Shown here: in pieces, positions 37,568 through 46,135 of the stretch
How the letters are laid out: each line of letters starts with the position of its first letter
Numbering within the stretch: the stretch's first letter is position 1
NCBI GenBank assembly: GCA_018064525.1
Contig: JAGHVB010000016.1
Coordinates: 1-59,115, forward strand
Source of the DNA: Candidatus Treponema merdequi
GTDB taxonomy: Bacteria > Spirochaetota > Spirochaetia > Treponematales > Treponemataceae
Length of the DNA: 59,115 nt
Reading direction: 5' to 3'
The notes under the pieces: generated by a model
Databases searched by the model: none
Seen by the model: only the letters and a program-made list of their open reading frames with translations
Told to the model about the DNA's origin: nothing
Position numbers and translations under genes: made by a program

Positions 37568-37595
37568 TAGACAAAATTTACCTAGATGATAAAAT
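37568..37595 (+). promoter_or_regulatory. Promoter of PAP2-like gene (leaderless)
   Basis: TAGACA (37568-37573), 16 bases, then TGA-TAAAAT (-10 at 37590-37595). The ATG at 37604 follows after 8 bases without an SD. Confidence 0.5.
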
Positions 37596-37603
37596 ATAAT
37601 ATT

Positions 37604-38083
37604 ATGTTTGGAGACTTAAAAAGTAATTTACTGAAACTGTTTTTAAATCCTGTTTTTCTTTCCTGTGTTTTCAGCTGGTTTGTTGCACAGTTTATTAAAA
37701 CTATCATAAATCTTTGTTTAAGAAAAATTCACAGCATCGGGGAATTGTTTGAATTTCTGATCTGGAAAACCGGCGGCTTTCCTTCAAGTCATACAGCATT
37801 AGTTACTTCTCTGTGTACTTCAGTTTCTTTCAGGAATGGAATTGATTCTGATATCTTTATGCTTGCTGCATGTTTAATGATGATAACAGTTCGTGATGCT
37901 CTTGGTGTAAGACGAGCAAATGGAATTCACGCAAAAAAATTAAATGAAATGGGGCAGAAGCTCGACGAAAAAAATATTATTGAATATAAACCAATAAAAG
38001 AAGTTTTAGGTCATAATCCTATGGAAGTTGTTTTCGGAGCAATTCTTGGATTTTTTATCGGCCTTGCATTTACAACTTTATAA
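37604..38083 (+). CDS. Divergent PAP2 (DUF212) membrane protein
   Basis: A 159-residue membrane protein of the YuiD/DUF212 class. GGFPSSHTALVTSL is the phosphatase-like motif, followed by VRDALGVRRANGIHAKKLNE and GHNPMEVVFGAILG, characteristic of the family. About four membrane segments. It may act on lipid phosphates, but the family is not biochemically settled. ATG 37604 is chosen because a promoter ends 8 bases before it; an in-frame ATG at 37586 lies inside that promoter. The next gene starts 17 bases downstream. Confidence 0.82.
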   Translation: MFGDLKSNLLKLFLNPVFLSCVFSWFVAQFIKTIINLCLRKIHSIGELFEFLIWKTGGFPSSHTALVTSLCTSVSFRNGIDSDIFMLAACLMMITVRDALGVRRANGIHAKKLNEMGQKLDEKNIIEYKPIKEVLGHNPMEVVFGAILGFFIGLAFTTL

Positions 38084-38100: not shown

Positions 38101-39489
38101 ATGAAATATATAAAAAAGTTTGTAATACCGTCTCTTTTAACTGTCTCAATTTTTATTCTGCTTTTGATTTTAAGAACTGTACCAACATCAAAATTATGGA
38201 AAGGATTTTCTGTTTTATATGTACCATGTGATACTGATTCAAAAATCGTTTTAGATACATTAAAAGATGTCGGATGTAAAGATGTAATTTCCTTTTATAA
38301 TCAGAAAGTTCCTTTTGTAAATCAATTTCTGCCGATTAAATCTGATGAACATGATTCATACCTTTCAAAACGAAATGCATATTTTTTTGATAAAGACAGA
38401 ACTGTCATGATTTATTACATACCTGACAGTTATTCAAAAGAAGCAAAAAAAGGATGTGAATTATTAATCAGCCGGTATTCAATTGATGCAGGACTGGACA
38501 GTAAATCATCCTTTCCGCTTTTGACTCCAATCATCTGTATTATCGTTGCAGTTTTATTTCTTATCATTTCAAAAAACAGAATCATATTTCTTGCAGCATC
38601 TTTATTTCCAATAATTTACAGTTTTACAATGCCTTTTTATACAAATGCATCCTGTGTCTGTATTTATCTTTATTCAATTTATTTGTGTCAGAAAATCTGG
38701 AACAGAAAAAATGCTTTTTCATGCATTAAAAATAACTTTTATATCTTAATACTTTTTGCCGTTTCTTTAACAGGAACTTTTTTCTCATCTTTTGTATCAG
38801 GATTTATGTTCATGCTCTGTATTGCGGCAAGTTTTTTGCTTCTCTATATGATACATAATCTTGAAATTATAAAAGATTCAAAATTAAGATTCTGTCCTGT
38901 TTTAATGAGAAATGCTTTTTTAATGAATGTAATTAATATAAATTCAATTAAAAAAGCACTTATTCCTGCAATTGCAGTTTCCGTTCTGTTTATTTTATAT
39001 ATAACAAGTGTAAATATTTTTACAATCTCAAATTCTGCAGACTTGTCTTTTCCTATGCCGACAATGTATAATGTAAATAACGATATTCCGACTCTTGACG
39101 ATTATATCGTATGGAACTGGAATGCAGTTACTAAACCTTATAAATCATTGAACAATACTTATTCAGACATTCCGGTTGATGGTGAAAACATTGTCATTCA
39201 GAGATTTAAAAATTCTGATGAAGGTGTTGTTTCTACAGAAGAAGTTTTATACAGTTTTGATGATGAGTTTAAATCTCAGACTGTAAATCTGATTGATGAT
39301 TTACAATATCCGGCTCTTGAAAAACTTATGAAAAATCAGCAGTCTGGTTTTTCTGTTGATTATTCGTATGGAACTGGAGAAAAATTTAGTAAGGTAAATG
39401 TTATTTTAATGCTGGTTTTAATTTTAATTCCATGCTTTATGATATTGATTTATTTTAACGGAAGAAGAAAATATGGAAATGCAGATTAA
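38101..39489 (+). CDS. Polytopic membrane protein of the rnf operon
   Basis: A 462-residue membrane protein. One N-terminal helix (FVIPSLLTVSIFILLLILR), a ~130-residue periplasmic domain (VLYVPCDTDSKIVLDTLKDV), a cluster of about seven helices (~145-310), a second periplasmic domain and a final C-terminal helix. I recognise no family. Its 3' end overlaps rnfC by 17 bases, so it is translated with the Rnf genes and may be an accessory subunit or assembly factor. Two extracytoplasmic domains around a helix bundle suggest substrate or partner handling in the periplasm. Confidence 0.65.
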   Translation: MKYIKKFVIPSLLTVSIFILLLILRTVPTSKLWKGFSVLYVPCDTDSKIVLDTLKDVGCKDVISFYNQKVPFVNQFLPIKSDEHDSYLSKRNAYFFDKDRTVMIYYIPDSYSKEAKKGCELLISRYSIDAGLDSKSSFPLLTPIICIIVAVLFLIISKNRIIFLAASLFPIIYSFTMPFYTNASCVCIYLYSIYLCQKIWNRKNAFSCIKNNFYILILFAVSLTGTFFSSFVSGFMFMLCIAASFLLLYMIHNLEIIKDSKLRFCPVLMRNAFLMNVININSIKKALIPAIAVSVLFILYITSVNIFTISNSADLSFPMPTMYNVNNDIPTLDDYIVWNWNAVTKPYKSLNNTYSDIPVDGENIVIQRFKNSDEGVVSTEEVLYSFDDEFKSQTVNLIDDLQYPALEKLMKNQQSGFSVDYSYGTGEKFSKVNVILMLVLILIPCFMILIYFNGRRKYGNAD

Positions 39490-40798
39490 TTATCCGAAAA
39501 AAAATAAATATCCTGTTACAAAATTAACAACCGGATTTTTGCCTCGTACTCTTATGATTCCACTTTCACAGGAAGATAATTTTGTTTGTGAAAGTATTGT
39601 ACATGAAGGGGATTTTGTAAAAGAAGGCCAGGTAATTGCTGAAGTTTCAAGAGAAACTTATGGAGCTAAATCTTTGGGAGCTGCAAAAATTCATTCACCA
39701 GTACCAGGAAAAATACTTGGAATTAAAAACTGTTCTTATCCTAACGGAAAACAGGGAAAGGCAATTGAGATTTTGTTAAGCGGAAGTTTTTCATATTTAG
39801 GTAAACAGCTTTCTGCATTTGATTTTAAAAATTATTCACCTTCAATGCTTTTAAGAACAATCAGTGATGCTGGAGTTATAAACACTTTCTCATGCAATTC
39901 ATATAATTCTTTTGAAATCGATGTAAATAAAATTAAAGAAGAACAGAATAAAAAACTTTTTGTCAGACTTTTTGATGAAGATCCGTCATGTGATACAGAT
40001 TCAATTTTAACAAGAAGTGATTTTGATAAAATCATGACAGGAATTTATATTACAGCAAAAGTTTGTGATGTAAATGAAATAGTCATTGCTTATTCAAAAA
40101 AATCAAATCTTCTGACAATGTTTAATATCAGTCAGAAAGAACTTTTCGAATCAATTCCAATGACATTTCTGGAAATAAAATCATATGAATATCCTTCTGG
40201 TGGAAAAAGAGAATTAACAGGTGCTTATCTTAAAAAGAAAAAACTTGCATCTTCTCCAAAAGAAATTATTAAAGGAAGTTTTTTTACAGATTCTACTACA
40301 ATGGTTCATGTTTATGATGCTGTTGTTTTAAATATTCCTGTTGAAACTGTAAACGTATATGTAAATGGAAATTGTCTGCAGGCTACTGCATTATTAAAAG
40401 TTTGTGTCGGAACTTCTTTTAATGAAATTGCAAAACAATGCGGTGGTTTTACAAAAAAACTTGGAAAGATTATTGTTAATGGAGAAATTAATGGAGTTTC
40501 TGTTAATTCTCTTGATACACCTGTTACAAAATATGTTAAATCAATTACATTTACTTCTCACGAAGACAATATTGACAGAAGTGTAAGTATCTGTCTCCGT
40601 TGCGGAAGATGCAGAAGTGTATGTAAGACAGGTTTGAATCCTGATATCATTTTTGCAAAAGTTATTTCCGGAGCAGTGGTAGATGAAGCATATATAAAAA
40701 GTGCTGTCCTCTGTAATCAATGTGGATTATGCAGTGCTAATTGTCCTTCTAAATTGCCGCTTGCAAAAGTAATTAAATTATTAAAAGATGAGAGATAA
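39473..40798 (+). CDS. rnfC: Rnf electron-transport complex subunit C (divergent)
   Basis: A 441-residue subunit, cytoplasmic and membrane-attached, which in canonical Rnf accepts electrons from or gives them to NAD(H). The N-terminal barrel-sandwich hybrid (MIPLSQEDNF, VHEGDFVKEGQVIAEV, HSPVPGKILGI) and SLBB-like region match RnfC. Two [4Fe-4S] motifs close the protein: CLRCGRCRSVC and CNQCGLCSANCP. The middle part differs strongly from well-known RnfC (the usual ECEPY segment reads DEDPSCDTDS), so nucleotide/flavin binding is uncertain. First of rnfCDGEAB; it overlaps the upstream gene and precedes rnfD by 3 bases. Confidence 0.82.
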   Translation: MEMQINYPKKNKYPVTKLTTGFLPRTLMIPLSQEDNFVCESIVHEGDFVKEGQVIAEVSRETYGAKSLGAAKIHSPVPGKILGIKNCSYPNGKQGKAIEILLSGSFSYLGKQLSAFDFKNYSPSMLLRTISDAGVINTFSCNSYNSFEIDVNKIKEEQNKKLFVRLFDEDPSCDTDSILTRSDFDKIMTGIYITAKVCDVNEIVIAYSKKSNLLTMFNISQKELFESIPMTFLEIKSYEYPSGGKRELTGAYLKKKKLASSPKEIIKGSFFTDSTTMVHVYDAVVLNIPVETVNVYVNGNCLQATALLKVCVGTSFNEIAKQCGGFTKKLGKIIVNGEINGVSVNSLDTPVTKYVKSITFTSHEDNIDRSVSICLRCGRCRSVCKTGLNPDIIFAKVISGAVVDEAYIKSAVLCNQCGLCSANCPSKLPLAKVIKLLKDER

Positions 40799-40801
40799 AA
40801 A

Positions 40802-41863
40802 ATGGAAGAAAATATTTTAAAGAATAAATCATATAAAACAGTAAATCTCAGTCCTTACATAAATAAAAGTTCAACATTTATGACTTATCTTGCAATCTTT
40901 ATTGCTGTTGTTCCTCAGATTATAATGCTTTTTGTTACAAAAAGTTATTCTAATCTTATTATAATTGCAACATGTATTTTTGCATGTCTTTGTTCAGAAA
41001 TTATAAATTATATCAATAAAAAACATATTAAACTTTCAATTCTGATGAGTTTTCTTAAAGGAACTTTAATCGGATTCTTTTTGCCTTCCGGATATCCGCT
41101 TTTATCAGTATTTTTCATAACTCTGTTTGTAATGCTTTTTGTAAAATACTCTTTTGGAGATTTAATTGTTTCATGGATAAATCCTGTCGTAATTACAGTT
41201 GCAATCTGCTGGTTTGTAGGCCAGATTAATTTTCCTTCATTTCTTGTTACAAAGTATTTTCTTTCAACAAAAAATCCGTCTCTTTCATTGATTCAGGAAG
41301 GAATTTTCCCGATATTTGCTTTTGATGATATGGTTACTTCATTTATGAATGATTCCGCATTCAGTCTGTTTGGAGTTTCTGTTCCGTCAGGTTATGCTTC
41401 ACTTTTCTGGGACAGTGGATCAGTAATTCCTGCATTCAGATTTAATTTTTTAACATTGCTTTCATCAATAGTTTTAATTTCAATTGATGTAATTACTTTT
41501 GATATTCCGTTCTGTTTCCTTACAGTTTACGCTTTGCTTGTAAAATTTCTGTCACCGGTTTTTTCAGGTGGTTTCCCTATGCAGGGTGATATAATTTTAG
41601 CACTTCTTTCAAGTGGAATTTTGTTTACCGCATTCTTCCTTTTACAATGGTTTGGTACTACACCAATGACAAAAGCAGGAAAATTAATTTTTGGAATTGC
41701 AGGTGGAATTATTGCATTCATTTTCTGCGGCTGCGGAACAAGTCCTGTCGGTGCTGTAATTTCAGTTCTCTTTTTAAATATCATATCTCCTGTAATTCAG
41801 TATTTTGAAAACAGAATCAAGAGAAATAAATTAAATATAATTTTAAGGAAAGAAAATGCTTGA
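40802..41863 (+). CDS. rnfD: Rnf complex subunit D (divergent)
   Basis: A 353-residue membrane subunit of the RnfD/NqrB family with about nine helices. GDIILALLSSGILFTAFFLL and MTKAGKLIFGIAGGIIAFIF match the conserved C-terminal part. Canonical RnfD carries a covalently bound FMN on a threonine of an SGAT-type motif; no such motif is visible here (the region reads FWDSGSVIPAF). It overlaps rnfG by 8 bases. Confidence 0.82.
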   Translation: MEENILKNKSYKTVNLSPYINKSSTFMTYLAIFIAVVPQIIMLFVTKSYSNLIIIATCIFACLCSEIINYINKKHIKLSILMSFLKGTLIGFFLPSGYPLLSVFFITLFVMLFVKYSFGDLIVSWINPVVITVAICWFVGQINFPSFLVTKYFLSTKNPSLSLIQEGIFPIFAFDDMVTSFMNDSAFSLFGVSVPSGYASLFWDSGSVIPAFRFNFLTLLSSIVLISIDVITFDIPFCFLTVYALLVKFLSPVFSGGFPMQGDIILALLSSGILFTAFFLLQWFGTTPMTKAGKLIFGIAGGIIAFIFCGCGTSPVGAVISVLFLNIISPVIQYFENRIKRNKLNIILRKENA

Positions 41864-42359
41864 GACTATAGATAAAGAAACTAAATTAAAAGTTAAAACA
41901 TATTTAATTTTTACCAGCTTATTAATTGTAATGGCCTTACTGCTTACTTCTTTTTCTTTACTTGCAAGAAAAAACTGGAACAATCAGCTTAGAGTTCATG
42001 TAGAAACTGTTCTGGAAAATTCACGTCCAGAAGAATTCCCTGCAAAATATTCTATCGGAAATCCCGTTAAAATTAATTCCTCAATTTCTGTAAGTTCAAA
42101 TATGTATGAAATTACTTCAAAATCAAATAAAACTTCAAAATATGTTTTAATAACACGTATTACATCCTATTGGGGACCTCTTGCAGCTGTTTTCCTTTAT
42201 GACGGAAACGGTGTCGTAACATTTGAAGGTTTTGTTTTTCCAAGTAAAAGAATAGAATCACAGTTTGACAATGCAGAAAATGAATTATCAATAAAATACT
42301 GGAAAAATAAAGCACTTGTAATTTTTGAACAGACTCTTAAAGATGGAGAAAAAAAATGA
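41856..42359 (+). CDS. rnfG: Rnf complex subunit G (divergent, FMN-bind-like)
   Basis: A 167-residue protein with one N-terminal transmembrane helix (YLIFTSLLIVMALLLTSFSL) and a periplasmic FMN_bind-like domain (AVFLYDGNGVVTFEGFVF). RnfG normally holds FMN covalently on the threonine of an SGAT motif near the C-terminus. Here the end reads ALVIFEQTLKDGEKK with no such motif, and the protein is shorter than the usual ~200 residues. It overlaps rnfD (8 bases) and rnfE (4 bases). Confidence 0.72.
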   Translation: MLETIDKETKLKVKTYLIFTSLLIVMALLLTSFSLLARKNWNNQLRVHVETVLENSRPEEFPAKYSIGNPVKINSSISVSSNMYEITSKSNKTSKYVLITRITSYWGPLAAVFLYDGNGVVTFEGFVFPSKRIESQFDNAENELSIKYWKNKALVIFEQTLKDGEKK

Positions 42360-42979
42360 ATAAATACCTTTATTATATTTTTACATCAATTTCATTTGCA
42401 TTATTAATTGCAGCTCCAGGAAGATTTGCATTTGGACTTATTCTTTGCTTTGAATTATTCTTTTTGATTTTTACAGGATTTCTTTTTTCATTTATCTTAA
42501 AAAAACTTGAACTTAATGAAATGAATTCTGTTTTTACAGTCATAAGTCTTATCTTTTCGACAATTCTTTATAAACAGATTATAATGTGCCTTTTTCCTTT
42601 AATCGCACTTCAATTAAGTTTTGTATTTTATCTTCCTGCGGTAACATCTTATATAATTGGAATTGTTTATAAAAACGTTAATTCATCAACAAAAATATCT
42701 CTTATTGAAAATGTTAAAGTCACAGGTTTGTTTTCAATTCTTGCTTTGATTTTTTATTTAATCAGAGATATTATCGGATATGGAACATTTACTTTTCCAT
42801 CGTCAAAAGGACTTTTTGAATATCAGATTCTGAATTCTGAAAATTTTGTATGGGGAACTTTATTTGCTTCAATTCCTGGAAGTTTAGTTCTTGTTTCTGT
42901 TACAATTTTGATTTTCATTTTTGTTCAGAAAAAATTTAATATTATTGAAAGAGCAGAGGATGCAAATGATTCTGAATAG
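42356..42979 (+). CDS. rnfE: Rnf complex subunit E (divergent)
   Basis: A 207-residue membrane subunit with six helices. The C-terminal half (GLFSILALIFYLIRDIIGYG) fits RnfE, where the family has IREILGxGT. Canonical RnfE has cysteines in GLCP and VNC segments that hold an intramembrane [2Fe-2S] cluster with RnfA; the corresponding stretches here read AAPGRFAFG and LPAVTSYIIG. It overlaps rnfG by 4 and rnfA by 14 bases. Confidence 0.75.
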   Translation: MNKYLYYIFTSISFALLIAAPGRFAFGLILCFELFFLIFTGFLFSFILKKLELNEMNSVFTVISLIFSTILYKQIIMCLFPLIALQLSFVFYLPAVTSYIIGIVYKNVNSSTKISLIENVKVTGLFSILALIFYLIRDIIGYGTFTFPSSKGLFEYQILNSENFVWGTLFASIPGSLVLVSVTILIFIFVQKKFNIIERAEDANDSE

Positions 42980-43526
42980 TTTATTTTATTATATTTTGTT
43001 CTGTTCTTCTGTTTTAATTTATGGAATTGGTTTCAACAGAGAATCTGTTATGTGCAACAGTCCGCGTAAAATTTTGTTCAGTGCAATAAAAACCTATGCA
43101 TGTGTAATTATTTCTTTTGTTTTAACTTTTCTGATTAACAAAAGTCTTTTAATTCCACTAAATATTGTAGAAATTTATCCTTTCTTTTCTCTGATCATAT
43201 ACATTGCAATAACTGTATTTTTTGAAATTTTAATTCAGATTACAACAAAGAAAACTTCTTCAGAATTTGCCGTTTCTTTTTTAACATTACTTTTATCTGT
43301 TAATGAAGCAATGTCCATACCGGAAGGTATTTTAATCTGTGCAGGTTGTCTTACAGCTTTTTATATTTTGATTCCAGTATTATATGCTCTTGAAAAAAGA
43401 ATGGAATCTTCAACAACCAACGATATTTTTAAACAGAAAAGCCTGATTTTTTTGAGTATGGTCATCATTATGATTGCCTTATATTCTTTTAAGATTTCGT
43501 GGTTGAACAGCGGGGTTATAAAATGA
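42966..43526 (+). CDS. rnfA: Rnf complex subunit A (divergent)
   Basis: A 186-residue membrane subunit with six predicted helices, paired with RnfE. ATG 42966 is chosen because GAGGA lies 6 bases upstream. The family's first cysteine segment (GLCPFLG) corresponds to IYGIGFNRES and the second (TNCAVLG) to SVNEAMSIPE, so the cluster ligands appear replaced. The C-terminal VLYALEKRME fits RnfA. It overlaps rnfE by 14 and rnfB by 4 bases. Confidence 0.72.
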   Translation: MILNSLFYYILFCSSVLIYGIGFNRESVMCNSPRKILFSAIKTYACVIISFVLTFLINKSLLIPLNIVEIYPFFSLIIYIAITVFFEILIQITTKKTSSEFAVSFLTLLLSVNEAMSIPEGILICAGCLTAFYILIPVLYALEKRMESSTTNDIFKQKSLIFLSMVIIMIALYSFKISWLNSGVIK

Positions 43527-44140
43527 TTGTACGCATTCTTTTAGTTTTTTTATTTGTAATTTTTACTTCTTTCATTTTGTATTTTATTTATGGTGTATTT
43601 ATTCCTGCAATAAAAAGTCAGACTGTAGAAAATAAAGATCCATTGTTTTCTGAAGTTGAACTTAATTATGTAGGAAATATGTCGGAAAAAACAATCACTG
43701 TTTCTGACAAGACTGCCGTAGTATTATGTAATCCGGACAGATCTTTTTCAAATCAGAGACTTTCCTATAATGGAATTAAAAGCTGCGCATTATTTCATTC
43801 CATTTATGAAACATCAAATGACTGTGCTTTCGGTTGCATAGGTTTTGGTGACTGTGTAAAAAAATGTCCGCAGGAAGCAATTATCATTAAAAATTCTACA
43901 GCAATAATCACAAAAAATTGCTGCGGATGTGGTGAATGTATTTCTTCATGTCCAAAAGATTTAATAAAATTGTACGAAAGAAAAGCCTTAAAAGAAAATT
44001 CAGAAATTAAACTTTGCAATGCATCAGAAAACTGTCTGACAAGCTGCAATAAATGCCAGAAATTGCAGAAAGTTGAATTTCCTGAACAAAAGAACTTTAA
44101 ATTCTGGAAATCTTGTTATAAAATATTCAACAGAAAATAA
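43523..44140 (+). CDS. rnfB: Rnf complex subunit B, shortened
   Basis: A 205-residue ferredoxin-like subunit with one N-terminal helix. ATG 43523 overlaps the rnfA stop by four bases (ATGA), with GGGG about 8 bases upstream. KTAVVLCNPDRSF and IKSCALFHSIYETSNDCAFG lead into GCIGFGDCVKKCP, then CCGCGECISSCPKDLI: two [4Fe-4S] binding motifs. The usual N-terminal LPGxNCGACGYPGC cluster domain is absent, so the subunit is shorter than typical RnfB (~260-330). A cysteine-rich tail (CNASENCLTSCNKCQ) follows. It is the last rnf gene. Confidence 0.82.
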   Translation: MIVRILLVFLFVIFTSFILYFIYGVFIPAIKSQTVENKDPLFSEVELNYVGNMSEKTITVSDKTAVVLCNPDRSFSNQRLSYNGIKSCALFHSIYETSNDCAFGCIGFGDCVKKCPQEAIIIKNSTAIITKNCCGCGECISSCPKDLIKLYERKALKENSEIKLCNASENCLTSCNKCQKLQKVEFPEQKNFKFWKSCYKIFNRK

Positions 44141-44161: not shown

Positions 44162-46135
44162 ATGAGTATTTTAAAATTTTGTCTTCAGTTTACAACAGGT
44201 GCAAGCAGTTTTCTCGATAGTTCTGACTATAAGTCAATTTATGAAAATTATTACAAACCGATAGGAACATATCTTTATGCACATCCTGAAGTTCCCTTTA
44301 CATTTTATTTTACAGGTCCTCAATTTGATTTAGTTAAACAGAAAAATCCTGAGTTCATAGAAATTTTAAGAAAGCTTTACAACAGAAAACAAATTGAACT
44401 TCTTGGCGGCGGTTATTATAATCCAGTCTTTCCTTTATTGTTTCCACTCGATAGATCAGGTCAGATTGAAATGCTTAGTTCTACTGTAAGAAAAGCTCTT
44501 GGAAAAAGACCTCGCGGTGTTGTTCTTTGTGCAAGTGCGTGGGATCCGTCTCTTGTAACTTCATTTGAAACATGCGGAATGGAATATGTAGAAATTGATT
44601 CTTCTTTAATTCCAAAAGATAAAAACTTATATTTACCGTTAATTGTTTCTGACAGAGGAAAATGTCTTAAAGTAATTTCTCTTAATACCGATTTTGTTCC
44701 TCAGAAAGATGAAACTCCAGAAAACTTTATCAAAAGAATTAAGAGTTCACTTGATAAAGTTTTAAAAATTGAAAATGAATTTTCAGAAAGTGACAGAGTA
44801 GTTACAATTCCGATGGTAAAAGAATCAATGCAGATTTTTTTGCAGAAAGGCTGGGCTGATGAATTTATTAATCTGATAAATACAAAATATTCAGATGCAA
44901 TTAAATTTGATTTACCTGCAAACTGTGCAAAAGATTCTGATTCATTTGTTCCTGCTTATATTCACGCTGGAATCAGCGCAGAAATTGCTAAATGGGCTCT
45001 TGAACCTTACAAACAGACAGATGTAAAAAATCTTTCTGTAAATATTTATGATTTTATGCAGACATATAAACGAAGTCAGGCATTATATAACCGAATGACT
45101 TTTGTTTCTTATCTTATCAATCAGTGTAAAGGTGACAAGATGAGAAAAAAAACTGCAAGGGAAAATCTCTGGGCTGCACAGACTGGAGATGCGTATGTCT
45201 GTAAATCAAGCGGAATTCTTGTTAACAGTCAGGAAAGACAGAACGCATACCGAAAACTTACAGAAGCTGAAAAACTTGTTCGTGAATGCGAAGAATTTCA
45301 TGAATCGGTAATTCCTTATGACTATAATTGTGACGGTTTTAATGAATATCTTTGCCGTATGGAAAAATTCAATGCATGTATCAATCCACGCGGTGGATGT
45401 ATTTTTGAACTTGATTTGATAAAAAAATCAGGAAACTATGCAGACAATATGACACGCGTAATGCCGCTTGATAAATGTAACGACAATTATGAAAAAGGAA
45501 TTTTTGTTGATCATCTTTTTGAACCTGAAGAATATAACAAATATGTAAAAGGACTTCCTTGTAAAAACGGAGTTTTTTCAGGAAACATTTACAAAGAAGT
45601 AATGTACAACGCAAACAAAAAAGAAGTCTGCCTTGAAACAAATTCTCATTTTCCAGGTCTTGATCAGACAATACGGCTCCGTAAAAAATTCATCATAACT
45701 TCAAACGGAATCATGGTTCAGTACATTCTTAAAAATACAAGTCCGATCGCATTAAAAGCAAAATTTGTTGTTGAATCAAATTTTGCACAGACAGATTTTA
45801 CTTCTGATAAATTTGACTCGTATAAAATTGATGTTGTTAATAACAGTCAGATTGAAGAAAAGACACCTGAAAATCTTGAATTTATGAAAAATGTTGATGC
45901 ATTTCAGCTTACTGATATTGTAAACAATGTAACATTCACTTTCGAACCGAATGAAATAGCAAATCTTGTTTCATACCCTGTAACATTGATGCGTCAGAAA
46001 ACAAATTCCACAAACCTCGAACCAGCAGGCCGAACACTTGCACTTTCTCTTGCATGGGATGTAGACCTTTCTGCCGGCATGGAAATGGAAAAGACAGTAA
46101 ACCTCACGATTATCTCAAACAAACGTAAAAAATAA
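44162..46135 (+). CDS. GH57-fold protein, probable pseudoenzyme
   Basis: A 657-residue cytosolic protein resembling GH57 4-alpha-glucanotransferases: N-terminal barrel (KPIGTYLYAHPEVPFTFYFT, LLGGGYYNPVF, RGVVLCASAWDPSLV), a helical part and a C-terminal beta domain of the DUF1925/1926 kind (from ~390). In active enzymes the barrel starts with an HxHQP motif and holds a nucleophile glutamate in LTERVWQP and an acid aspartate in FHDDGEKFG. Here these read LQFTTG, LCASAWDP and TIPMVKES, so catalysis is doubtful. It may bind glucans or sense them. It begins 21 bases after rnfB and may be co-transcribed; an SD is weak. Confidence 0.75.
   Translation: MSILKFCLQFTTGASSFLDSSDYKSIYENYYKPIGTYLYAHPEVPFTFYFTGPQFDLVKQKNPEFIEILRKLYNRKQIELLGGGYYNPVFPLLFPLDRSGQIEMLSSTVRKALGKRPRGVVLCASAWDPSLVTSFETCGMEYVEIDSSLIPKDKNLYLPLIVSDRGKCLKVISLNTDFVPQKDETPENFIKRIKSSLDKVLKIENEFSESDRVVTIPMVKESMQIFLQKGWADEFINLINTKYSDAIKFDLPANCAKDSDSFVPAYIHAGISAEIAKWALEPYKQTDVKNLSVNIYDFMQTYKRSQALYNRMTFVSYLINQCKGDKMRKKTARENLWAAQTGDAYVCKSSGILVNSQERQNAYRKLTEAEKLVRECEEFHESVIPYDYNCDGFNEYLCRMEKFNACINPRGGCIFELDLIKKSGNYADNMTRVMPLDKCNDNYEKGIFVDHLFEPEEYNKYVKGLPCKNGVFSGNIYKEVMYNANKKEVCLETNSHFPGLDQTIRLRKKFIITSNGIMVQYILKNTSPIALKAKFVVESNFAQTDFTSDKFDSYKIDVVNNSQIEEKTPENLEFMKNVDAFQLTDIVNNVTFTFEPNEIANLVSYPVTLMRQKTNSTNLEPAGRTLALSLAWDVDLSAGMEMEKTVNLTIISNKRKK

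Follow-up and report, generated by a model that had tools for sequence, protein, structure and literature searches.

The Rnf complex is taken to indicate redox-driven energy conservation. In A. woodii its intramembrane cluster is bound by residues C25 and C108 of RnfE and C25 and C113 of RnfA, and both Rnf activity and growth are lost when these cysteines, the FMN-G residues, or the riboflavin-D residues are mutated (PMC11889175). The membrane core of Na+-NQR is homologous to that of the complex described here and its NqrA, a homologue of RnfC, is cofactor-free (PMC12174285). For Treponema pallidum, an RNF complex has been proposed as a noncanonical flavin-dependent ion pump (PMC7512555), with TP0151 being its rnfD (PMC11371664), and the energy model published for this organism rests on the annotation of 'rnfD' and its neighbours.

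The stretch of DNA analysed here (59,115 nucleotides from Candidatus Treponema merdequi, referred to as the window) carries an operon which probably encodes a hollow Rnf, namely an old paralogue in which the subunits C-D-G-E-A(-B) are kept and the transmembrane electron route is lost. Judged from its sequence, it is a conserved, repurposed paralogue, and no known mechanism would let it act as a ferredoxin:NAD+ redox pump; that it is not a redox pump at all and has been selected for something else would seem highly probable.

Gene content and subunit identity

The operon of the window has the order PAP2-like, X462, C-D-G-E-A-B (Table 1). Within this six-subunit Rnf architecture C, D, E, A, and B were assigned by HMM, hhalign, and fold, and G by position. 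In its six subunits and their order the window agrees with the Rnf complexes of A. woodii (9ERI), C. tetanomorphum (7ZC6), and A. vinelandii (8AHX), and it shares with them the folds of RnfE and RnfA, the barrel-sandwich domain and two [4Fe-4S] sites of RnfC, and the RnfD family PF03116. The window differs from them in being without the RnfA/E [2Fe-2S] ligands, the flavinylation motifs of D and G and the FMN loop of RnfC, in having a truncated RnfB (absent in some relatives), and in the extra constant neighbours PAP2-like and X462. The Na+-NQR retains [2Fe-2S], covalent FMNs, and NqrF, whereas in the hollow Rnf the Fe-S sites are found in RnfC and the membrane part appears empty. The last gene of the window operon is RnfB-like and not NqrF, and NqrD/E-type cysteines are absent, which sets it apart from Na+-NQR.

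Table 1. Genes of the hollow Rnf operon and its upstream neighbours in the window.
Feature	Position	Strand	Basis and remarks
PAP2-like protein (DUF212)	37586..38083	+	PF02681 match, E=5e-40; first in conserved cluster
X462, cluster-specific membrane protein	38101..39489	+	Outside any Pfam family
RnfC-like	39473..40798	+	NCBIfam rnfC, E=5e-54, below cut-off
RnfD-like	40802..41863	+	Pfam PF03116, E=7e-39
RnfG-like, short	41856..42359	+	Position between D and E
RnfE-like, 207 aa	42356..42979	+	hhalign, AF2 model, Cys table
RnfA-like, 186 aa	about 42966..43526	+	hhalign, AF2 model, Cys table; listed ORF starts upstream at TTG
RnfB-like, truncated	43523..44140	+	NCBIfam RnfB-type match, E=5e-23, middle part of protein

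As no Pfam match was obtained for the RnfE and RnfA of the window, their identity was tested separately by profile-profile comparison (hhalign), using profiles from 40 genus orthologues together with the window. The E profile paired with canonical RnfE (E=2.3e-6) and not with RnfA, and the A profile with canonical RnfA (E=3.8e-6) and not with RnfE. The AlphaFold (AF2) model of RnfE (pLDDT 91) gave a Z of 16.8 to the RnfE of 8ahx and of 14–17 over about 180–195 residues to RnfE/NqrD chains, while that of RnfA (pLDDT 77) gave 14.8 to the RnfA of 9eri and 13–15 to RnfA/NqrE chains. The identity of both subunits is secure despite the absent Pfam match.

The order X462-C-D-G-E-A was kept in all 40 genus loci examined and the PAP2-like gene lies ahead of the operon in 38 of these, as it does in other families; the RnfB gene is missing in 10/40. 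X462, for which the profile search returned no Pfam match, is an undescribed Rnf-associated protein which precedes hollow Rnf operons across Spirochaetia and is missing from the reduced genome G165 (see below). A further X462 gene (L324:5899-7443) was found directly before a canonical Rnf operon, and at one locus (L322, G525:C1:1208500-1225500) the PAP2-like and X462 genes are adjacent with no Rnf genes beside them in the fetched stretch. Directly 3' of the operon there is a GH57-family gene, both in the window (44162-46135) and in a T. pallidum-like genome (L154:3931-5832).

The genome to which the window belongs (2.70 Mb, 99.8% complete) possesses, on contig 78 (L003:4964-9980), a separate canonical Rnf operon that is complete and has every motif intact (GLC/NC, SSAT, SGAT, and the RnfC FMN loop).

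Loss of cofactor sites

It had been claimed in the initial annotation that RnfE and RnfA are without all four cysteines of the cluster. This was borne out by a joint alignment of the window with intermediate relatives and with the canonical Rnf of its genome, in which the four ligand columns are occupied by A15 and S98 in RnfE and by N24 and A102 in RnfA. Two of the stretches quoted as counterparts, TSYIIG (RnfE) and GIGFNRES (RnfA), were in register, but AAPGRFAFG and VNEAMS were not: the equivalent of GLCP in RnfE is FALL(IA), 6 residues upstream of AAPGR, and that of NC in RnfA is SEFAVS, ~12 residues upstream of VNEAMS. The mis-registration leaves the conclusion of cysteine loss unchanged. 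Next to the second cluster site, RnfA has a deletion of about 10 residues round the half-helix, with a spacing of 15 between E87 and A102 compared with 25 between E88 and C113 in A. woodii.

Cysteines at shifted but equivalent positions had been named as the observation that would speak against this loss, and no conserved set of four was found among 61 loci of the window's family. RnfA C128 is present in 36/61 members, no Cys column of RnfE exceeds 15% across the family, and no alternative Cys/His metal site is conserved in either subunit over these loci. The conserved candidates are carboxylates only, i.e., E100 (60/61) and E114 (53/61) of RnfA and D138 of RnfE (61/61), the last of which belongs to the canonical R-E motif. 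A salt bridge between RnfE R23 and RnfA E114 in place of the cluster was considered and rejected, as neither residue aligns with a ligand column after register correction and R23 is not family-wide (50/61). A fixed carboxylate standing in for the charge of the cluster is kept only as an idea, since E100, with the adjoining half-helix of RnfA deleted, may be situated near the membrane surface instead of at the old cluster site. With regard to the Na+-path residues of A. woodii, R67 and E115 of RnfE are not conserved in the hollow family, about half of whose members retain RnfA E88.

Counts of cofactor motifs over the same 61 loci gave a similar picture for the other subunits. The dicluster motif for the two [4Fe-4S] sites of RnfC was kept in all of them, while neither the GxGGAxFP loop nor ECEPY of its FMN/NADH site, both of which the canonical paralogue has, was found in any (0/61 each). 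No flavinylation motif was found at the canonical position in RnfD or in RnfG (SGATxT) (0/61 each), with stray SGAT-like matches off this position in two D and one G sequences (of 61 each). In the window, the profile search gave no FMN_bind match for RnfG and no PF04060 match for RnfB, i.e., the N-terminal membrane-adjacent Fe-S domain of the latter is missing; its ferredoxin-type Fe-S sites are still present. The riboflavin ligand N123 of RnfD is retained as N127 in 56/61 members, and the window has W at the position of D249. RnfD has acquired a new D-x3-T-x3-N / LPxGY / IPAFRFN signature, of which LPxGY...IPAFR[FY]N occupies the former place of the flavinylation loop, and its residues D175, N183, P195, G197, Y243, G272, and E336 are invariant (61/61). 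These residues, together with RnfA position 100 (acidic in 60/61), point to a putative new conserved site. The loss of motifs argues strongly against covalent FMN and [2Fe-2S], and more weakly against a non-covalent flavin.

Distribution, selection, and order of loss

Orthologues of the window RnfE were identified in 129/146 genus genomes and, at the family level, in 222/245, representing 19 of the 20 genera; among high-quality family genomes they are present in 127/128. Between close pairs, dN/dS for C, D, G, E, A, and B was 0.04–0.28, with one pair including a genome without canonical Rnf (G034), and every subunit is under purifying selection. Both the hollow and the canonical operon occur in most genomes. 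At least eight genomes, each at least 95% complete, have no PF02508 Rnf/Nqr gene in addition to the hollow operon (G018, G034, G036, G020, G201, G223, G158, and G165), including Treponema berlinense (G018, matched to ATCC BAA-909). An OadB-type Na+-pump subunit was found in all hollow-only genomes tested, G165 included. Elsewhere, the canonical RnfA of G205 (C1:1272344-1272905) is broken by a stop and lies in two frames, possibly a recent break of a canonical Rnf, and G120 has an unusual expansion of flavinylated-type proteins with thirteen FMN_bind matches, mostly in frames of about 590–770 aa.

The loss of cofactor sites, as read from the motifs, is graded and family- to class-wide. All four cysteines of RnfE and RnfA are retained in family f3 of the order (L228-L230), where RnfB is near complete and L229/L230 also have SGAT-type motifs in D or G; the RnfC of this family is already without the FMN loop. 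Three cysteines are left in f4 (L327), only the first RnfE cysteine (GLCP) in some genera of the window's family, and none in f5, f6, f12, the window's genus, and the G165 locus. In another family of the class (L324), the Rnf operon immediately 3' of X462 is canonical throughout, pointing to a layout of this kind as the ancestor of the hollow operon. In the RnfC tree, which is unrooted and comes from a quick search with some long branches, a single branch splits hollow from canonical sequences with an SH-aLRT of 100. It is suggested that the RnfC FMN site was lost first and that the transmembrane chain decayed later, more than once. A hollow Rnf would offer a rare example of a primary redox pump without its cofactors whose membrane core is still under selection, and one where living intermediates show the order of cofactor loss.

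Possible functions and the operon of a T. pallidum-like genome

A hollow Rnf would be unable to work as a ferredoxin:NAD+ redox pump and, with redox pumping precluded, its membrane subunits D, A/E, and G would serve another membrane task. Most likely these would form a transport or ion-conducting module, anchored to RnfC and perhaps gated by it, with RnfC acting as an electron port or an Fe-S sensor on the cytoplasmic side, a mechanism which is put forward tentatively and leans to the doubtful side. A broader reading is possible, if still short of probable: a descendant of Rnf without transmembrane electron transfer, acting as a transporter, channel, or sensor with an Fe-S RnfC, conserved across Spirochaetia and constituting the only Rnf of T. 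pallidum, where the proposed redox pump would be nonexistent. As counterpoints, flavins could bind non-covalently at sites invisible to motifs, and the [4Fe-4S] sites of RnfC with the RnfB sites of some members suggest electron transfer on the cytoplasmic side.

The main rival to a transport or ion-conducting role is a pure redox-sensing or signalling complex, in which the Fe-S sites of RnfC would sense the cytoplasmic electron-carrier pool without any transport and the membrane part would relay this state to the periplasm (X462, PAP2-like, and RnfG). The invariant cofactor sites being cytoplasmic Fe-S only, and the constant neighbours having periplasmic or membrane parts, are in agreement with such a sensor; however, RnfD and RnfA/E retain a full transporter-like membrane fold with invariant polar residues and there is no linked regulator, so that it is considered rather unlikely. 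The complex could also still pump ions by redox chemistry through cofactors that are non-canonical or bound non-covalently, e.g., as a flavodoxin-fed pump of the kind proposed for T. pallidum. The proposal of a noncanonical flavin-dependent pump there (PMC7512555), the RnfC dicluster, and the retained RnfD N127 speak for this. Against it stand the absence of the four cluster ligands, of both covalent FMN sites and of the RnfC FMN loop, the complete absence of RnfB in many members, an RnfG unrecognised as FMN_bind and the lack of any A/E Cys/His column conserved enough as a substitute, making a redox pump improbable.

It is less probable still that the hollow subunits act as accessory or regulatory partners in mixed complexes with canonical Rnf, as the joint occurrence of both operons might indicate, since this is contradicted by the hollow-only genomes, which provide no such partner. 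The least credible explanation, to which almost no weight is given, is that of a decaying pseudo-operon or random drift. Although RnfB has been lost or shortened in several lineages and X462 is missing in G165, frames that are open nearly everywhere combined with low dN/dS rule out such decay and a pseudogene reading with it, and the new RnfD motifs are invariant and the operon is kept in a reduced genome of 1.14 Mb. The initial annotation had likewise preferred a re-purposed complex to random drift, a view strengthened by the further losses in RnfB and at the flavin sites of C, D, and G, by orthologues whose frames stay open under purifying selection in almost every complete genome of the family, and by persistence of the operon in genomes that have lost canonical Rnf.

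G165 consists of a single contig of 1,139,633 bp and falls in the same genus-level group as several treponemes of 2.7–3.4 Mb. Published T. pallidum genomes are of 1,139,510–1,139,577 nt (PMC6103504), which makes it almost certain that G165 is T. pallidum. The hollow locus of G165 (L154) is orthologous to that of the window and has the order C-D-G-E-A, without B, flanked as in the window by pseudouridine synthase and PAP2-like genes upstream and the GH57 gene downstream. A comparison with host-associated Treponema including T. pallidum had been proposed, and for this T. pallidum-like genome the cluster cysteines are indeed absent, as are the flavin motifs; the locus is hollow in every subunit. 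It is the only Rnf copy of G165, in which no PF02508 Rnf gene was found. The literature (PMC7512555; PMC11371664) describes the putative T. pallidum RNF (TP0151 and neighbours) as a flavin redox complex that pumps ions, whereas L154 is without known cofactor sites, and the motif evidence does not support a pump function by any characterised Rnf mechanism. A hollow Rnf challenges the Rnf-pump model published for T. pallidum, and if this organism has no Rnf other than a hollow one, its membrane must be energised by other means. Outside the hollow operon, G165 encodes FMN_bind proteins at C1:622681-622899 and C1:192278-192514, which are candidate substrates of a flavin transferase.
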